Shown piece after piece: positions 15,078 through 21,695 of a stretch of 22,569 nt of DNA; within the stretch, counting starts at the first letter, position 1; each line of letters opens with the position of its first letter. The notes beneath the pieces were generated by a model that worked only from the letters and a program-made list of their open reading frames with translations, did no database searches and was not told the DNA's origin. The DNA comes from a virus. The stretch spans positions 1 to 22,569 of IMG/VR virus record IMGVR_UViG_3300009285_001708. One strand, written 5' to 3'. Both the position numbers and the translations under genes were made by a program.

Positions 15078-16075
15078 ACTTCGTTTGTTCTCGCAAAATC
15101 TTTGCAAATATCTTTGATTATATCTGATAAAGAATACTTGTAGTCCCATTCGGGATAGTCTTTTCTGAACTTTGATACATCGTGAACATCATACTGCCTG
15201 TCGCCCTCACGCCCCTCGTGCAATTCGTATGTGCATTTTTTGCCCGTTGCTTTTTCGATAAGGTCTACGGCTTCCAATACAGATACCGAACGGTCGTATC
15301 CGCCTCCCATGTTGTATACAGCGGCGACCTTAGGGTTTTGTATGAAGTACCAGAATGCGTTTACTAGGTCGTATGCGTGTATCTGGTCGCGCACCTGCTT
15401 TCCCTTGTAGCCGAAAATCTTGTACGTCTTTCCTTCCTTGATGCACTTTGCGAGATACGCGAGAAACCCGTGATACTCCGCTCCCTGATGGTTCCTACCC
15501 GTGATACACCCGCAACGAAAACACACGGTTTTCATGCCGAAGTAATTACCATATTCCTGCACATAAATATCTGCGGCGGTTTTTGAGCAACCGAACAATG
15601 ACCGCTTGCCGGCAAAATCCAACCCCAGTTCCTCACCGTATGGAAATAATGAACCATACCGAGTAGGAAACTCGGCACAGTCCCTTTTCATATTTTCCCC
15701 GTATACCTTGTCCGTACTCACATAGACAAATACGGCACTGGGACTGTACTTGCGGGTAGCCTCTAATAGAATAAGCGTCGCACGAGCGTTTATGTCGAAA
15801 TCTGTTAAAGGCTCCCGCCTCGCCCAATCGTGTGAGGGTTGAGCGGCGGCGTGAATTACGGCATCAAATGGGCCTTTCGTTTCAAATAACTGATAAACTT
15901 CTGTATCATTTCTGATATCCAAATTAATGTCTACGGGCTGTTCGGGTGTCCCGAAAAGCTTCGAGCGCATGTTGTTATCCACCCCGATGACTTCCCACTC
16001 CTTATCTGCAAAGAACTTCATCGCCTCCGAACCAACAAGCCCCGAACTTCCTGTAATAAGTACCTTCATACTCAT
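15065..16075 (-). CDS. SDR epimerase, CDP-paratose/tyvelose 2-epimerase-like
   Basis: A 336-residue extended SDR protein. ATG 16075 overlaps the small upstream gene's stop as ATGA. The Rossmann motif is TGSSGLVGS (8-16). VSTDKVYG (119-126), SLFGCSKTAAD (159-169) and GKQVRDQIHAYDLV (225-238) match the RfbE/tyvelose-epimerase branch, including the conserved KQVRD. The usual catalytic Tyr of YxxxK is Phe161 here, with K165 kept. I recall LFGxSK in related proteins, so this may be typical of a subfamily rather than damage. The likely substrate is a nucleotide-activated 3,6-dideoxyhexose or another deoxysugar from the neighbouring dehydratases. The next gene encodes the 3-dehydratase. Confidence 0.82.
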   Translation of the reverse strand: MSMKVLITGSSGLVGSEAMKFFADKEWEVIGVDNNMRSKLFGTPEQPVDINLDIRNDTEVYQLFETKGPFDAVIHAAAQPSHDWARREPLTDFDINARATLILLEATRKYSPSAVFVYVSTDKVYGENMKRDCAEFPTRYGSLFPYGEELGLDFAGKRSLFGCSKTAADIYVQEYGNYFGMKTVCFRCGCITGRNHQGAEYHGFLAYLAKCIKEGKTYKIFGYKGKQVRDQIHAYDLVNAFWYFIQNPKVAAVYNMGGGYDRSVSVLEAVDLIEKATGKKCTYELHEGREGDRQYDVHDVSKFRKDYPEWDYKYSLSDIIKDICKDFARTNEVCVQ

Positions 16076-16236
16076 TCGCGCATTAGCATTTTCTGTTGGT
16101 GTAAACCTGATTTGGTATACCAAAACGGTTTATCGTAATTCGGCAAACCACGGGACTCACGCCATTCTCTGTCAGCCGATACAAGCGCCTGCCACTGTTC
16201 GTTTCCCCTGTTCCCGTATCGGGTACGAAGTCTCAT
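16072..16236 (-). CDS. Conserved-looking 54-residue protein between GT11 and epimerase
   Basis: ATG 16236 to TGA 16072-16074. Both ends overlap the neighbours as ATGA: the start overlaps the GT11 stop and the stop overlaps the epimerase start. This is strong evidence for a real, coupled gene. The product begins MRLRTRYGNRGNEQWQAL and includes ADREWRESRGLPNYD and KPFWYTKSGLHQQK. It is polar and aromatic-rich, with no membrane segment or Cys. I do not recognise it. A small partner of a sugar enzyme is one guess. Confidence 0.72.
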   Translation of the reverse strand: MRLRTRYGNRGNEQWQALVSADREWRESRGLPNYDKPFWYTKSGLHQQKMLMRE

Positions 16237-16823
16237 ATCTGTATCCATTCATCGAGTAATTCCGTCCTTTGTATACCGTCAATAAACCAGTTTTTTGGAG
16301 TCACTATTGTCGGCTTGTGCGGGTTCAAAAATGCCGCCCACCATGAAAATGACGAGTTCGCCATGATAATGCCTTTGCACGACGCCATGAGGTTCATGTC
16401 CTCAGTCTCGTCCTCGTTCCACGGTGCTAGTTCCCATTTGATACCCAACACATCAAGATTCTTTTCACACCAAAGTCGGTCGCTTTCATCTTGTGAATCG
16501 TCTTGTCTATCTCGGCAAAATACTAAGAAAGTATCATTTGGGAACATCCGCACCGCGTTTTTGTAATAGTCGGTCTCCCAAAGGTTCACATGGAAGTTGT
16601 CTGCTTTGAGGTAGTCTCCCCGACGAATATGGAGCGCCACCCTATCTGTCTTACCGATGTTTTCAGAGAAGTATTCGCGTATTTGCTCCGCATGAGACCC
16701 CCAATGTTTCGCGCCCTGTAGGTAAATATCAGGAATCTTCCCGTCGAGTAGTTGACCGATAAGATACGCCTGCTTAAACATGATGTTTCCTAACCCTCCC
16801 ACGCATTGGCGAACTTTACGCAT
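16233..16823 (-). CDS. Alpha-1,2-fucosyltransferase, GT11 family
   Basis: A 196-residue protein from ATG 16823. Longer frames upstream would run into the divergent HNH gene and lie before the conserved start. Family 11 motifs: VGGLGNIMFKQAYL (8-21), VALHIRRGDYL (about 66-76, the GDP-fucose binding HxRRGDY), and IIMANSSFSWWAAFLNP (about 158-174). PKNWF follows. It is shorter than the usual 270-300 residues because the middle is compact, but all motifs are intact. It would move fucose (or a similar GDP sugar) onto a beta-Gal acceptor, the step that makes the H antigen in animals. It has no signal peptide. It is followed by the 54-residue gene. Confidence 0.9.
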   Translation of the reverse strand: MRKVRQCVGGLGNIMFKQAYLIGQLLDGKIPDIYLQGAKHWGSHAEQIREYFSENIGKTDRVALHIRRGDYLKADNFHVNLWETDYYKNAVRMFPNDTFLVFCRDRQDDSQDESDRLWCEKNLDVLGIKWELAPWNEDETEDMNLMASCKGIIMANSSFSWWAAFLNPHKPTIVTPKNWFIDGIQRTELLDEWIQI

Positions 16824-16860
16824 ATTGCATTTCTCCAATATTAGTGCTAACATTATCCAT

Positions 16861-17325
16861 ATGATTGAAGTTGCGTGTTTGACTTGTAAGAAGAGACTCA
16901 TCCGTTCTCCGTCTAAAGTTGAGCCAAGAAACTTTTGTTCTAGCGAATGTTATGCCTTTACAAGAAATAAAGAACTTGAGGAAAAGGGCAGTAAGACACG
17001 CTACACACACGGGCATCGTAAAAATCCTAAGTCCCACTATAGGGCGCTCGCACGATTGCTTGAGAATGACGGACATAAACTTTGGAAAGGTGATAGCGTC
17101 AGTTATCGTGGGCTTCACCAGTGGGTACGACGGAAGAAAGGGAAGCCGTCGGGGTGCGTAAGATGTGGTCGTAGAAGCCATAAGCCAAAGGTCATCCAGT
17201 GGGCGAACATTGACGGGAAGTATCATCGGATGTTGGAGGACTTTGTGTCTCTTTGCGCTTCTTGCCATAAAAATCACGACCTTGCTCTGAAATCCACTCG
17301 GGGTGCGCCAATTGCCATTCGATAG
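16861..17325 (+). CDS. HNH-type endonuclease with N-terminal Zn finger (only plus-strand gene)
   Basis: A 154-residue protein from ATG 16861. An N-terminal C4 finger (C6, C9, C26, C30) is followed by a basic linker. The C-terminal unit has LHQWVRRKKGKPSGCVRCG (85-103), WANIDGKYHRMLEDF and LCASCHKNHD (131-140). This is a pattern I know from phage HNH-like nucleases of the kind that mobilise themselves. It would nick or cut DNA at a target site. It is opposite in direction to all other genes. Residues 111-154, which include the second metal pair, overlap the 3' end of the dehydratase gene by 134 bases. The 37-base gap to the GT11 start has only a weak promoter-like TTGCAT-17 bp-TAACAT. It is probably an inserted selfish gene. 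Confidence 0.82.
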   Translation: MIEVACLTCKKRLIRSPSKVEPRNFCSSECYAFTRNKELEEKGSKTRYTHGHRKNPKSHYRALARLLENDGHKLWKGDSVSYRGLHQWVRRKKGKPSGCVRCGRRSHKPKVIQWANIDGKYHRMLEDFVSLCASCHKNHDLALKSTRGAPIAIR

Positions 17326-18355
17326 TCGCCTGTAATGAGTCCTCAAAACTCTTCGGTGACTTCCAACCAAGGTTAGTTATCTTCGTATTGTCGAGTCCAT
17401 AGTGGGGGTCGTGGCCAGGGCGCACGGAGTGAGTCTCGACCAGCTCATAATCCAACTCTTTCCCCATTTGTTTTGCTATAAGTTGAGCTAATTCGAGGTT
17501 GTCTAACTGCTTATCTCCGCCGATATTGTATCTGTCCGGCCTGTCCGCCATGTTCGGAATATGAATGTGCGGCTTGGTATTTTTCAGGAGAAACAAAACC
17601 GCGTCTGCGAAATTACGGGAATGAATATACGAGCGGGAACCTATCTTCCCTATTTGACCGTGAATCAAAGCTCTTTTCCCTTCCATAAGCCACTTTTGTA
17701 CCATCACTGGGAACTTGGACGCTTGTTGTAATTCCGCAAAATTATTCATTGTATTGGTGATGATGAGCGGGACTCCGTAAGTTCTCCAGTAAGAAATCGC
17801 AATCGCCTCTTGGCACGCTTTTGATGCGGCATATGGGTTACTTGGTACAATCGCGTCCCACTCTTTTGTCTTCGGGGCATCCTTGGCTTCTATCGGCCCA
17901 TACACTTCGTCAGTTGAGATTTGTAGGAATACTTCGGGCTTTATCTCCCGTGCGTATTCCAAAAGGTTGATAGTCAGGTTGACATTATTGGTTATGAACG
18001 GAACAGGGTCTTTGATTGACGCTTCGACATCGGACAGTGATGCCATCGAGATTATGTAATCTATCGGGCCGATGAAGTCTTTAGTAAGTGGGGAAAACGG
18101 CGCATTGAGGTCATGCGTGACAACCACGAGGCGATGCAACCACTCGGGATGCTCTTTTGTTATTTCACGAACGCGGTCGCACCATCCTTTGTGTCGGAAT
18201 GAGTCAATGCCGACAATTTCCCAGTCTGTGTTATGAAAAATGTGCGCTAAGAAATGCACCGCAATACTTCCGCCTATGCCGGTTAGGAGGCAACGGCGCG
18301 GAGACGCTTTCTCTTTAACCAATTTTTGTGGAGATTCGCGTGGCACTTGGAACAT
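17192..18355 (-). CDS. NDP-sugar 4,6-dehydratase, extended SDR family
   Basis: A 387-residue frame from ATG 18355. The domain proper starts near RRCLLTGIGGSIAVHF (21-36), a Rossmann motif with the third Gly changed to Ala. The catalytic TDE of 4,6-dehydratases is in ISTDEVYG (147-153), and YxxxK is YAASK (175-179). GSRSYIHSRNFADAV (239-253) and YNIGG (276-280) also fit RmlB-like enzymes. It makes 4-keto-6-deoxyhexose, the substrate for the 3-dehydratase. Both ends look altered: residues 1-19 are an off-frame reading of an HNH ORF, and residues past about 355 are antisense to the plus-strand HNH gene. A TTG at 18322 may be the real start. The sugar nucleotide is unknown. Confidence 0.87.
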   Translation of the reverse strand: MFQVPRESPQKLVKEKASPRRCLLTGIGGSIAVHFLAHIFHNTDWEIVGIDSFRHKGWCDRVREITKEHPEWLHRLVVVTHDLNAPFSPLTKDFIGPIDYIISMASLSDVEASIKDPVPFITNNVNLTINLLEYAREIKPEVFLQISTDEVYGPIEAKDAPKTKEWDAIVPSNPYAASKACQEAIAISYWRTYGVPLIITNTMNNFAELQQASKFPVMVQKWLMEGKRALIHGQIGKIGSRSYIHSRNFADAVLFLLKNTKPHIHIPNMADRPDRYNIGGDKQLDNLELAQLIAKQMGKELDYELVETHSVRPGHDPHYGLDNTKITNLGWKSPKSFEDSLQATIEWQLAHPEWISEQGRDFYGKKRKETQSPPTSDDTSRQCSPTG

Positions 18356-18564
18356 AATACTTGTAAATTATCTAAGCAGTTATTGTCTCTGTTTTTGTCC
18401 TTATGGTGGACGTGGATTTTATTTCCCCAATTGCCTCTGATACCACAAAGTTCACAAATTGGTGTACGTTCCCTAGCAACCCTTTTTGCGTAAGAACCTT
18501 TCCCACCAGTAAAACTCCAAACGCTTTGGTCTACTTTCCATATTTTTTCAGGAGGTAGGTAGTT
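18283..18564 (-). pseudogene. HNH endonuclease frame without a usual start codon
   Basis: An open frame between a stop at 18565-18567 and TAA at 18283-18285 encodes a clear HNH unit: CELCG, then IHVHHKDKNRDNNCLDNLQ, then LCSKCHANLH. The metal-binding pairs and the HH...N...H pattern are intact. No ATG, GTG or TTG is present in frame before the finger; only ATA at 18541-18543. An ATG at 18539-18541 is one base out of frame. Removing one A from the AAA at 18535-18537 would join it to the HNH frame (start MEVDQSVWSF). It may be a recent one-base frameshift, an assembly error or a gene with a rare start. It overlaps the GT2 stop and the start of the 4,6-dehydratase gene. Confidence 0.65.
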
Positions 18565-19127
18565 TCATTTTGTTTGTCAATAGAGGATATCGTATGAGTC
18601 AGTCTATCAGTCCTTTCTGTGATTACAAGCCCAAAATCCTCGTTAATGTGGGGATAATCGTATTTTAGGAAAAGGCGATAGTAGAGGTCACAATCAACGA
18701 GCCACTGTAACGGTTCCTCAAAAAGAAGGGCTTTATCTTTCCGCATGGAAAGGGTTGAGACCGAGCCAAGACGGTTATTGCCTATATATATATCGTCAGT
18801 CCACTTTGGCTGATGTGGATTGCAAATCTTGTTCTCAATGTCATGCACACAGGCGGTAATCTGCCAATCCGAGTTTTCTATCCCTTTCACAATGTTCTCC
18901 AATGCCATGCCATGGGCAAAATAGTCGTCCATTTGTAGCATTTGGATGTATTCTCCTTTGGCTTTGGTTATTGCGGCGTTGTGGTTGCGGGCGAATTGCC
19001 CCTCTTTTGTTAGGACAACTTCGTAATCTTTATATGTTTGTGCGTCTACCGATGCAAGTAGGCGCGATAGGAAAAATGCTGTCCTAGGAGTGTCGTGATA
19101 GGGAATGCAGATACTAATTTTGGCCAT
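18531..19127 (-). CDS. Glycosyltransferase family 2 (short)
   Basis: A 198-residue protein. I use ATG 19127 (MAKISICIPYHDT), which overlaps the previous GT gene by 14 bases. The longer frame is an extension into that gene. GT-A start SICIPYHDTP (5-14), FARNHNAAITKAKGEYI (45-61), and an acidic metal site QMDDYF with D67 and D68 follow the GT2 pattern; the DxD is reduced to DD. WLVDCDLYYRLF is the acceptor-side motif. It transfers one sugar from a nucleotide donor to an unknown acceptor. At its end it meets the HNH frame. Confidence 0.85.
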   Translation of the reverse strand: MAKISICIPYHDTPRTAFFLSRLLASVDAQTYKDYEVVLTKEGQFARNHNAAITKAKGEYIQMLQMDDYFAHGMALENIVKGIENSDWQITACVHDIENKICNPHQPKWTDDIYIGNNRLGSVSTLSMRKDKALLFEEPLQWLVDCDLYYRLFLKYDYPHINEDFGLVITERTDRLTHTISSIDKQNETTYLLKKYGK

Positions 19128-19824
19128 GTATCGTGTTCTCTTTAGCGAGGTCTTTAGGCAAAATGTGCGGAAAGTCCTTGTGGATTTGTCCCCACAACTC
19201 TTTACTGTGTTTAAGAGAATCTTGCCACATAGAATCAGTCTTTGTCCTATAAAGAACAAGCGGTTGCGGAATTGTGACAATTTTTTTCCCACGAGTTAGT
19301 AAATCGAACCACAGGTGGTAATCTTCCCACCCTCCCAGTGCGTCCATGCGTGGAGAGTACCCGCCCACTTCTTGCAAGGCAGAGCGTTTTATCATTGAGA
19401 AATAGCCGATACGGTTTCCTACCCTGAAATCATCTATTGTGGGACTTGCCATGAGGGTGACGGTTTCGCTCGACGTGCCGAATGTTTTGAGTGATGGGGC
19501 AATAACATCGGCTTGCGTTGCTTTTGCGACACGCACCAATTCCTTTACACAGTCTTCGAGAAGAATGTCGTCCGCATCCAGTGGCAAGAAATACTGTCCT
19601 CGCATCGCCATGATTGCGCTATTTCTCGCACTCGCTAGACCCTTGTTCACTTGTTCAATGAGTTTGACGGGATACTTCTTTGCTATTTCGCTTGTGTAAT
19701 CCGGTGAACCATCGTTGACGACAATCACCTCTATGTTTTTATACGTCTGGTTGAGTGCAGATTCTATGGCGTCGGGCAGATATTCCGCCTGCTTGTAACA
19801 TGGAATCGCAACAGTTACTTTCAT
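19114..19824 (-). CDS. Glycosyltransferase family 2
   Basis: A 236-residue protein. ATG 19824 overlaps the GT6 stop as ATGA. VTVAIPCYKQAEYLPDAIES (3-22) and VIVVNDGSPD (33-42) are the nucleotide-binding start of GT2. The DxD is PLDADD (81-86), and GGWEDYHLWF (164-173) is the ED motif with the likely catalytic Asp. All are intact. The length is that of a bare catalytic domain, with no membrane helix. The sugar donor and acceptor cannot be read from the sequence. It is the second gene of the transcript that starts at the promoter near 20900. Confidence 0.9.
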   Translation of the reverse strand: MKVTVAIPCYKQAEYLPDAIESALNQTYKNIEVIVVNDGSPDYTSEIAKKYPVKLIEQVNKGLASARNSAIMAMRGQYFLPLDADDILLEDCVKELVRVAKATQADVIAPSLKTFGTSSETVTLMASPTIDDFRVGNRIGYFSMIKRSALQEVGGYSPRMDALGGWEDYHLWFDLLTRGKKIVTIPQPLVLYRTKTDSMWQDSLKHSKELWGQIHKDFPHILPKDLAKENTIHGQN

Positions 19825-20938: not shown

Positions 20939-21280
20939 TTAGGTGAGGGATTTGATGTTGGCATCGGGACTTTGATATAAGTATCTTCCTTTGTCGAAAC
21001 CTTCTTTGTGCGCCCTTTTCCCCTCCTCTTTCAGACACTCAATGAGGAATTGTTTATGTTCGGCGCGGATTTGAATGCCTATGGCACAATCGTCGCAACC
21101 TGCCGCACGGCCGATTGAATCACTATTCTTATCTGGCCCGTCACTGCCGAACCTCTCATCAAACCGCGCCAAGTATGTGGAGTGGGGATTGTGGCAGGGA
21201 CAGTCTTTGTCATGGCAATAGTCGTGCTTGGAATAGTCAGGACACTTTAAGCACTTCTCGCAACAAGGTTTAGTCTCCAT
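20939..21280 (-). CDS. Cys-rich protein, unknown function
   Basis: A 113-residue protein from ATG 21280, overlapping the HNH stop by 11 bases. The first 33 residues hold nine Cys and two or more His (KPCCEKCLKC, then HDYCHDKDCPCHNPH), which would bind one or two zinc ions. GCDDC (about 61-65) adds another pair. The C-terminal half is helical and basic (HKQFLIECLKEEGKRAHKEG). Such Cys-rich proteins are common in phage early regions without known role. It lies just upstream of the promoter, so it ends the small early-like cluster. Confidence 0.75.
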   Translation of the reverse strand: METKPCCEKCLKCPDYSKHDYCHDKDCPCHNPHSTYLARFDERFGSDGPDKNSDSIGRAAGCDDCAIGIQIRAEHKQFLIECLKEEGKRAHKEGFDKGRYLYQSPDANIKSLT

Positions 21281-21695
21281 ATTTGTAGCGAGGCATCTTC
21301 TTATCAGTAATTCCTATTTTTCTCCGTGCCTTGAAAGAACGGTCGGCGTAACAGCGTTTGCAGTGACGTGTTTTCCTACCCAACTTGTCAGTGTGAATCC
21401 TTGTATTCTCTGCCGTGAATAAGTGCCCCCACATGCACGAATTACTCCTAGCGTTTCTTGCGGAGATTGCCTCACCACGCATCACGTTGTCTTTGAGAGA
21501 GACTAGTTCAAGATGCTGTGGATTAACGCACGAATGGTTGCGGCATAAGTGGTCGCACACCTTCTTCATTGGGATATTTCGGCCTGATAAAGCAACCGCT
21601 AGCCTGTGTGCAAACTGCTGTTTTCCGTTAATAAGAATCACGCCGTAACCTCGCTTGTTCTTCCTACCCCGCCACTCAATACATGCTGTTTCCAT
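21270..21695 (-). CDS. HNH homing endonuclease (HNH_3 type)
   Basis: A 141-residue protein from ATG 21695. CIEWRGRKNKRGYGVILING (5-24, in parts) and FAHRLAVALSG lead to the HNH core: VCDHLCRNHSCVNPQHLELVS (in parts), with C-D-H, C, C and P-x-H-L. The C-terminal part, CMWGHLFTAENTRI and CKRCYADRSFKARR, is a Zn-binding and basic DNA-binding end often seen in phage HNH proteins of this type. It would nick a specific DNA site and spread its own gene. It is the third HNH-type ORF of the window, and unlike the one at 18283-18564 it is complete. Confidence 0.88.
   Translation of the reverse strand: METACIEWRGRKNKRGYGVILINGKQQFAHRLAVALSGRNIPMKKVCDHLCRNHSCVNPQHLELVSLKDNVMRGEAISARNARSNSCMWGHLFTAENTRIHTDKLGRKTRHCKRCYADRSFKARRKIGITDKKMPRYKYGD

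Follow-up and report, generated by a model that had tools for sequence, protein, structure and literature searches.

In the glycan-synthesis cassette of this phage, two different free-standing HNH genes have very probably settled at the two borders of a dehydratase gene that was already resident. The one on the plus strand, HNH+, most likely homes, and the one on the minus strand, HNH−, is probably a remnant. Both insertion points could be placed, both junctions are empty in related phages, and the 3' site is re-occupied elsewhere by an HNH lineage whose tree disagrees with that of the dehydratases, while the dehydratase core is intact; cleavage and homing are proposed for HNH+ from its sequence relationships. 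The earlier note on this DNA had suggested that homing insertions reshaped both ends of the gene. The empty alleles of both junctions in sister phages support the reshaping, for which homing would be the most likely route.

In the course of events that we favour, HNH+, a mobile gene with a promoter of its own, would insert antisense 9–10 nt beyond the last conserved dehydratase codon. When phages co-infect a cell, its nuclease would cut dehydratase alleles that lack an HNH gene, and repair with the HNH-bearing copy as template would place HNH+ at the same point. The end of HNH+ and the end of the dehydratase are now read from opposite strands of the same DNA. HNH− would have entered the overlap between the dehydratase and the preceding glycosyltransferase gene, GT2, parting the core from its native start codon; it would later have become start-less and truncated, and translation of the dehydratase would have to begin anew within what is left of HNH−. 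Neither insertion touches the dehydratase core, which is why the dehydratase remains intact.

Organization of the locus and empty junctions

The window, that is, the whole stretch of DNA analysed (22,569 bases), is one IMG/VR virus contig from a single metagenomic assembly. Besides a terminase gene and structural genes, some of them capsid-like, it contains a long glycan-synthesis cassette on the minus strand. The terminase is 69–83% identical to those of the nearest viral contigs, and its cultured relatives are all at or below about 30% identity. A repetitive frame of 702 residues with SVSGTVGASV-like repeats (3–2108, minus) is cut off by the contig end and probably encodes a fibre or adhesin, and the long plus-strand ORFs at 874–1980 are its antisense.

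The dehydratase ORF (17192–18355, minus, 387 aa) is preceded by GT2 (18531–19127, minus), which in the alignment has its native end LLKKYGK intact. The glycosyltransferase GT11 (16233–16823, minus, start 16823), recognized by alignment and Pfam Glyco_transf_11, lies downstream of the HNH+ insertion. HNH+ (16861–17325, plus, 154 aa) is antisense to the operon and overlaps the dehydratase ORF by 134 bp on the opposite strand. The HNH− frame (18283–18564, minus) extends into both neighbouring genes, overlapping the dehydratase ORF by 73 bp on the same strand. The coordinates and overlap lengths in the earlier note (134 and 73 bases) were reproduced exactly on recomputing the ORFs.

GT2 directly abuts the dehydratase, with no HNH gene between them, in 17 of the 20 contigs that have GT2 before the dehydratase. 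Because the ATG of the dehydratase lies inside the last GT2 codons, the GT2 stop in these 17 is placed −5 to +1 nt from the K-R codons of the dehydratase, as in the native overlap of L067 (AAAAAATATGGGTAAACGG). The window retains the GT2 end AAAAAATATGG, followed by 232 nt of HNH DNA, and the junction DNA of relatives places the native dehydratase start codon at ATG 18541–18539, inside the GT2 end. The dehydratase/GT11 junction is empty in 10 of the 13 contigs with GT11 after the dehydratase (gap −4 to +11 nt); 467 nt separate the last conserved dehydratase codon from GT11 in the window. The order GT2b-GT2-dehydratase-GT11-epimerase-DegT is common to the window and its HNH-free sister phages. 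Given this shared order and the empty junctions, the dehydratase is therefore resident and the HNH genes arrived later.

The earlier note had also raised the possibility that the insertions carried the gene in. Both HNH genes directly flank the dehydratase, and T-even phage genes near homing endonucleases are co-converted (PMC2988022), as would be expected if all three had moved as one cassette with the endonucleases bringing the dehydratase along. Such a transfer is nevertheless extremely unlikely, since HNH-free sister phages hold the dehydratase in the same order, the window gene falls within their clade in the dehydratase tree (98), and the core and its neighbours have the same G+C (0.472).

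Other genes were seen at borders of these cassettes. An MT-A70-like methyltransferase ORF (L065:5064–5618; IYADPPWSYADQG) stands at the dehydratase/GT11 border of one contig, where the window has HNH+, and an endonuclease-VII-like ORF between GT11 and the epimerase of a related cassette (L002:319–762) is another border insertion.

Core and ends of the dehydratase

The conserved core of the dehydratase comprises residues 20–355 (17291–18298, minus), as defined by alignments, Pfam GDP_Man_Dehyd (5.6e-38), AlphaFold and Foldseek. Five close viral relatives (58–65% identity) and a wider set of 80 align only within about residues 20–355/361, and 210 cultured-phage records align to about residues 20–356 only. 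At both ends, the alignments stop exactly at the start of the HNH DNA. The comparison with related phage dehydratases that the earlier note had proposed thus places the ends at residues 20 and about 355 and locates the empty sites, and the N- and C-terminal extensions, which might have been natural to such enzymes, are shared by none of the relatives examined.

Native N-termini in the relatives read M(H/Q/K)(K)RVLLTG, and native C-termini extend 0–9 aa beyond PEW(I/L). In the window, residues 1–19 (18299–18355, minus), unaligned in every relative, are the HNH− C-terminus read off-frame, and residues 356–387 with the stop (17192–17290, minus) are antisense to HNH+. The resulting tail of 31 aa is alone among the relatives examined and has no relatives of its own. 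The new start codon is likely ATG 18355; no clear Shine-Dalgarno sequence precedes it, and no strong start signal was found for the dehydratase.

The catalytic S-T-D-E and YxxxK motifs are invariant among the relatives aligned and intact in the window. The AlphaFold model has pLDDT values mostly above 90 in the core, and a Foldseek search with it matched the core to RmlB-like enzymes. With pN about 0.20 and pS near saturation, the core appears to be under purifying selection. From its fold and motifs, the protein is predicted to be a nucleotide-sugar 4,6-dehydratase, and it is presumably active as an enzyme. It shares fold and catalytic motifs with dTDP-glucose 4,6-dehydratase (RmlB) and related SDR enzymes, but scores below the cut-off of the NCBIfam equivalog TIGR01181 (187 of 365 bits) and has both ends replaced. 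Conservation along the dehydratase DNA peaks at codons 199–207 and is average or low at the ends; the idea that the insertions there target the best-conserved stretches was therefore rejected.

At the 3' border, the last 14 codons of HNH+ (from 17281) lie past the core of its family and enter the dehydratase end. The HNH frame invades the conserved dehydratase end by 35 nt in both the window and L090, giving HNH tails of LALKSTRGAPIAIR and IKLKSTRDESVANQ, respectively, with KSTR of the HNH tail antisense to the dehydratase PEWI codons. In a third locus, L105, the complement of CTA, a Leu codon of the dehydratase, serves as the stop codon of the HNH gene. A dehydratase stop near the junction is kept in L090 and L105 and is missing in the window, which results in read-through into HNH antisense DNA.

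That HNH DNA supplied the new ends as functional domains, and not as passive read-through, is very unlikely. Both are open and in frame, and a short helix (residues 358–370, mostly pLDDT below 50) is predicted in the tail. They are, however, common to no relative and are modelled with low confidence (pLDDT below 50 for residues 361–387, mean 56 for residues 1–10), and L090, with the same HNH at the same point, has a stop codon directly after the conserved dehydratase end.

The two HNH reading frames

HNH+ belongs to a family that in alignments combines a Cys4 N-terminal module with a WANxDxxY...CxxCH...D C-terminal module. Its relatives were found in more than 100 viral places with up to about 50% identity, including many other gene borders, where they are mostly in sense orientation, and they match PHROG HNH families (to 1e-7). 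The window copy itself has no Pfam HNH call, and its best Foldseek match is weak (E 0.06). Annotated HNH proteins of the Gordonia phages Gudmit and Lton are about 35–38% identical to HNH+ over 75–87 residues, a match that does not include its N-terminal Cys module. In bacterial genomes, the search for close relatives returned one distant match only, not beside a dehydratase. An Rfam search of 16000–19800 (E up to 1) yielded no catalogued intron or other RNA family. HNH+ appears to lie outside any intron or intein, with its insertion outside the conserved dehydratase core.

L090 and L105 likewise have a relative of HNH+ in antisense orientation at the 3' end of their dehydratase gene. The last conserved dehydratase codon is separated from the last HNH Asp codon by 10, 10 and 9 nt in the window, L090 and L105, and the genes beyond the insertion differ (GT11, an unrelated glycosyltransferase and the terminase region, respectively). 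With the antisense tail removed, the three HNH sequences form a clade (97/98, with a bootstrap value of 97, and 99 in another tree). By contrast, a single clade of the three carriers' dehydratases is rejected (AU p 2e-35), and their nearest dehydratase relatives are HNH-free (L062/L063, L006, L098). This combination of one HNH clade with scattered dehydratases suggests that three separate dehydratase lineages received one HNH lineage at an identical point and in an identical orientation, a signature of apparent site-specific homing. Only these three loci share the 3' site, and no members of the clade at dehydratase 3' ends besides L090 and L105 were found in IMG/VR.

The three HNH genes, being one clade, could also stem from an ancient shared insertion followed by many losses, with no horizontal homing, and the three changes on the tree could equally be one gain plus losses. 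That history is distinctly unlikely in view of the great distance between the dehydratases (the AU result above), their HNH-free nearest relatives and the different genes downstream of the insertion.

HNH−, located where GT2 meets the dehydratase, is an HNH nuclease with a truncated N-terminus. It is a stop-to-stop frame of 93 codons and was found only without a start-codon requirement, because it has no ATG, GTG or TTG anywhere; since the contig is a single metagenomic assembly, the missing start may be an assembly error. The frame is above the Pfam HNH cut-off, matches PHROG HNH families (phrog_1271 at 1.5e-10) and keeps its catalytic residues. Most of its relatives, typically 115–200 aa long, have an additional N-terminal part, a zinc finger or another module, which is absent in the window. 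HNH− is probably a dead remnant and not an active homing gene. Family comparisons confirm that both HNH+ and HNH− represent predicted real proteins and not chance ORFs; their origin as recent duplicates was rejected, as only 29 residues align.

Alternatively, HNH− could be produced by ribosomes that slip into frame −1 in the CTG AAA AAA TAT overlap and so extend GT2, giving a low-level GT2-HNH fusion. The frame is exactly −1 to GT2 and stays open throughout the overlap, which contains six consecutive A, and the HNH− catalytic motif is intact. We consider such a fusion unlikely, given that the N-terminal module of most HNH− relatives is missing in the window and that the A run was not added for slippage, because HNH-free relatives such as L067 have it too, as part of the codons for the native KKY end of GT2.

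Insertion at the 5' border, as favoured here for HNH−, has a parallel in L065, in which an intact HNH+-type gene in sense orientation occupies the same GT2/dehydratase border and the HNH end runs off-frame into a new dehydratase N-terminus. A third HNH type is located just upstream of the dehydratase in L087 and L089. The window contains a third HNH gene of its own (21270–21695, minus; phrog_826 at 5e-35, Pfam HNH_3), and in L087 and L089 its kin immediately precede the dehydratase. A duplicated dehydratase 5' end beyond HNH− was also considered and rejected (1 of 16 relatives, p 0.003, not significant after correction).

The HNH+ leader and known endonuclease genes

The leader of HNH+ (16825–16860, plus) contains a promoter-like sequence and a 19-nt near-copy, in reverse complement, of a dehydratase site. 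Of 71 HNH+ family members, 17 carry a TATAAT-like hexamer (at least 5 of 6) whose end lies exactly 6 nt upstream of the ATG; shuffled sequences gave a mean of 1.25 and a maximum of 5 at that position, and a maximum of 7 at any position. A −35-like hexamer at 17 nt spacing mostly accompanies it. The hexamer was noted upstream of the ATG in L139, L165, L168, L173, L176, L181, L184, L187, L197, L198 and others. The window leader is weaker (TTGCAT-N17-TAACAT, 7 nt before the ATG), L090 has TTGCAT-N17-TATAAT at 7 nt, and L105 has TTTACT-N17-TATAAT at 9 nt. These positions provide a lead that the family has its own promoter-like sequence placed for a leaderless mRNA starting at or near the AUG. A sigma-70 and terminator scan of the region gave no more sites than in shuffles, and a literature search found no paper linking leaderless transcription to such endonuclease genes.

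The near-copy is the reverse complement of TAATATTGGAGAAATGCAA, matches the dehydratase NNFGEMQ site at 18 of 19 nt, and overlaps the promoter-like sequence in the window. The match is better than in 150 of 150 shuffles, and all other sites with up to 2 mismatches from TAATATTGGAGAAATGCAA in the 1.8 Mb of fetched loci are at dehydratase NNFGEMQ codons, which lie in the most conserved DNA of the gene. A 12-mer of the near-copy occurs at the same place in L090, where the operator-like match is weak; the match is absent in L105. A search of other HNH+ family leaders gave no consistent support for operator-like copies: the match in L156 falls within the HNH coding sequence, that in L139 is weak (p 0.025), and none was found in L065, L070 or L105. 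The carriers have altered sites (NFAEL in the window, NWGQT in L090 and NLGEY in L105), each unique among 82 dehydratases. The GEM codons are altered in all three, but this alone is weak because they are altered in 30 of the 82 relatives overall. Read on the minus strand, the same 12-mer provides GGAG before the ATG of the downstream gene in the window (GT11) and in L090, a simpler reading than an operator. The putative operator is a post hoc lead drawn mainly from two loci. A scheme in which HNH+ is an autonomous homing element on the dehydratase, with a near-leaderless promoter working in either orientation, an operator copy of the homing site (NNFGEMQ) for autorepression and self-resistant sites in the carriers, is possible but on balance doubtful.

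On sequence grounds, the case can be assigned to the free-standing phage homing endonuclease genes, with antisense coding overlap, cross-phage site re-occupation and two flanking HNH families. In T4, such genes show presence/absence alleles and ORF overlaps, with one antisense case (segD), and the known sense overlaps of T-even mob and seg genes (HNH/GIY-YIG) with their neighbours are 11–24 bp (PMC2988022). The window resembles these systems in that its HNH genes lie between conserved genes, are absent in relatives and overlap neighbouring ORFs, with segD as the antisense precedent (PMC2988022). By contrast, the window has a 134-bp antisense overlap reaching 35 nt into conserved host codons, each gene supplies the C-terminus of the other, and two different HNH families flank one gene; homing is here proposed from sequence. 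I-TevI of T4 is autorepressed through an operator that resembles its homing site and overlaps its own promoter (PMC2988022). The near-copy of host-gene sequence over the HNH+ promoter-like sequence may be a similar arrangement, although HNH+ has no intron, belongs to a different nuclease family and is likened to I-TevI from sequence.

The locus is a natural case, with empty alleles, of endonuclease genes settling at gene borders while the host gene is spared, and of insertions that give rise to reading frames overlapping on opposite strands and to new ends of proteins. One HNH clade occupies the 3' site in three unrelated phages, and this site offers a homing target that can be tested. If the leads on promoter and operator hold true, they would account for the expression of such elements whatever their orientation, and they would extend the regulatory scheme known from T4 intron endonucleases.
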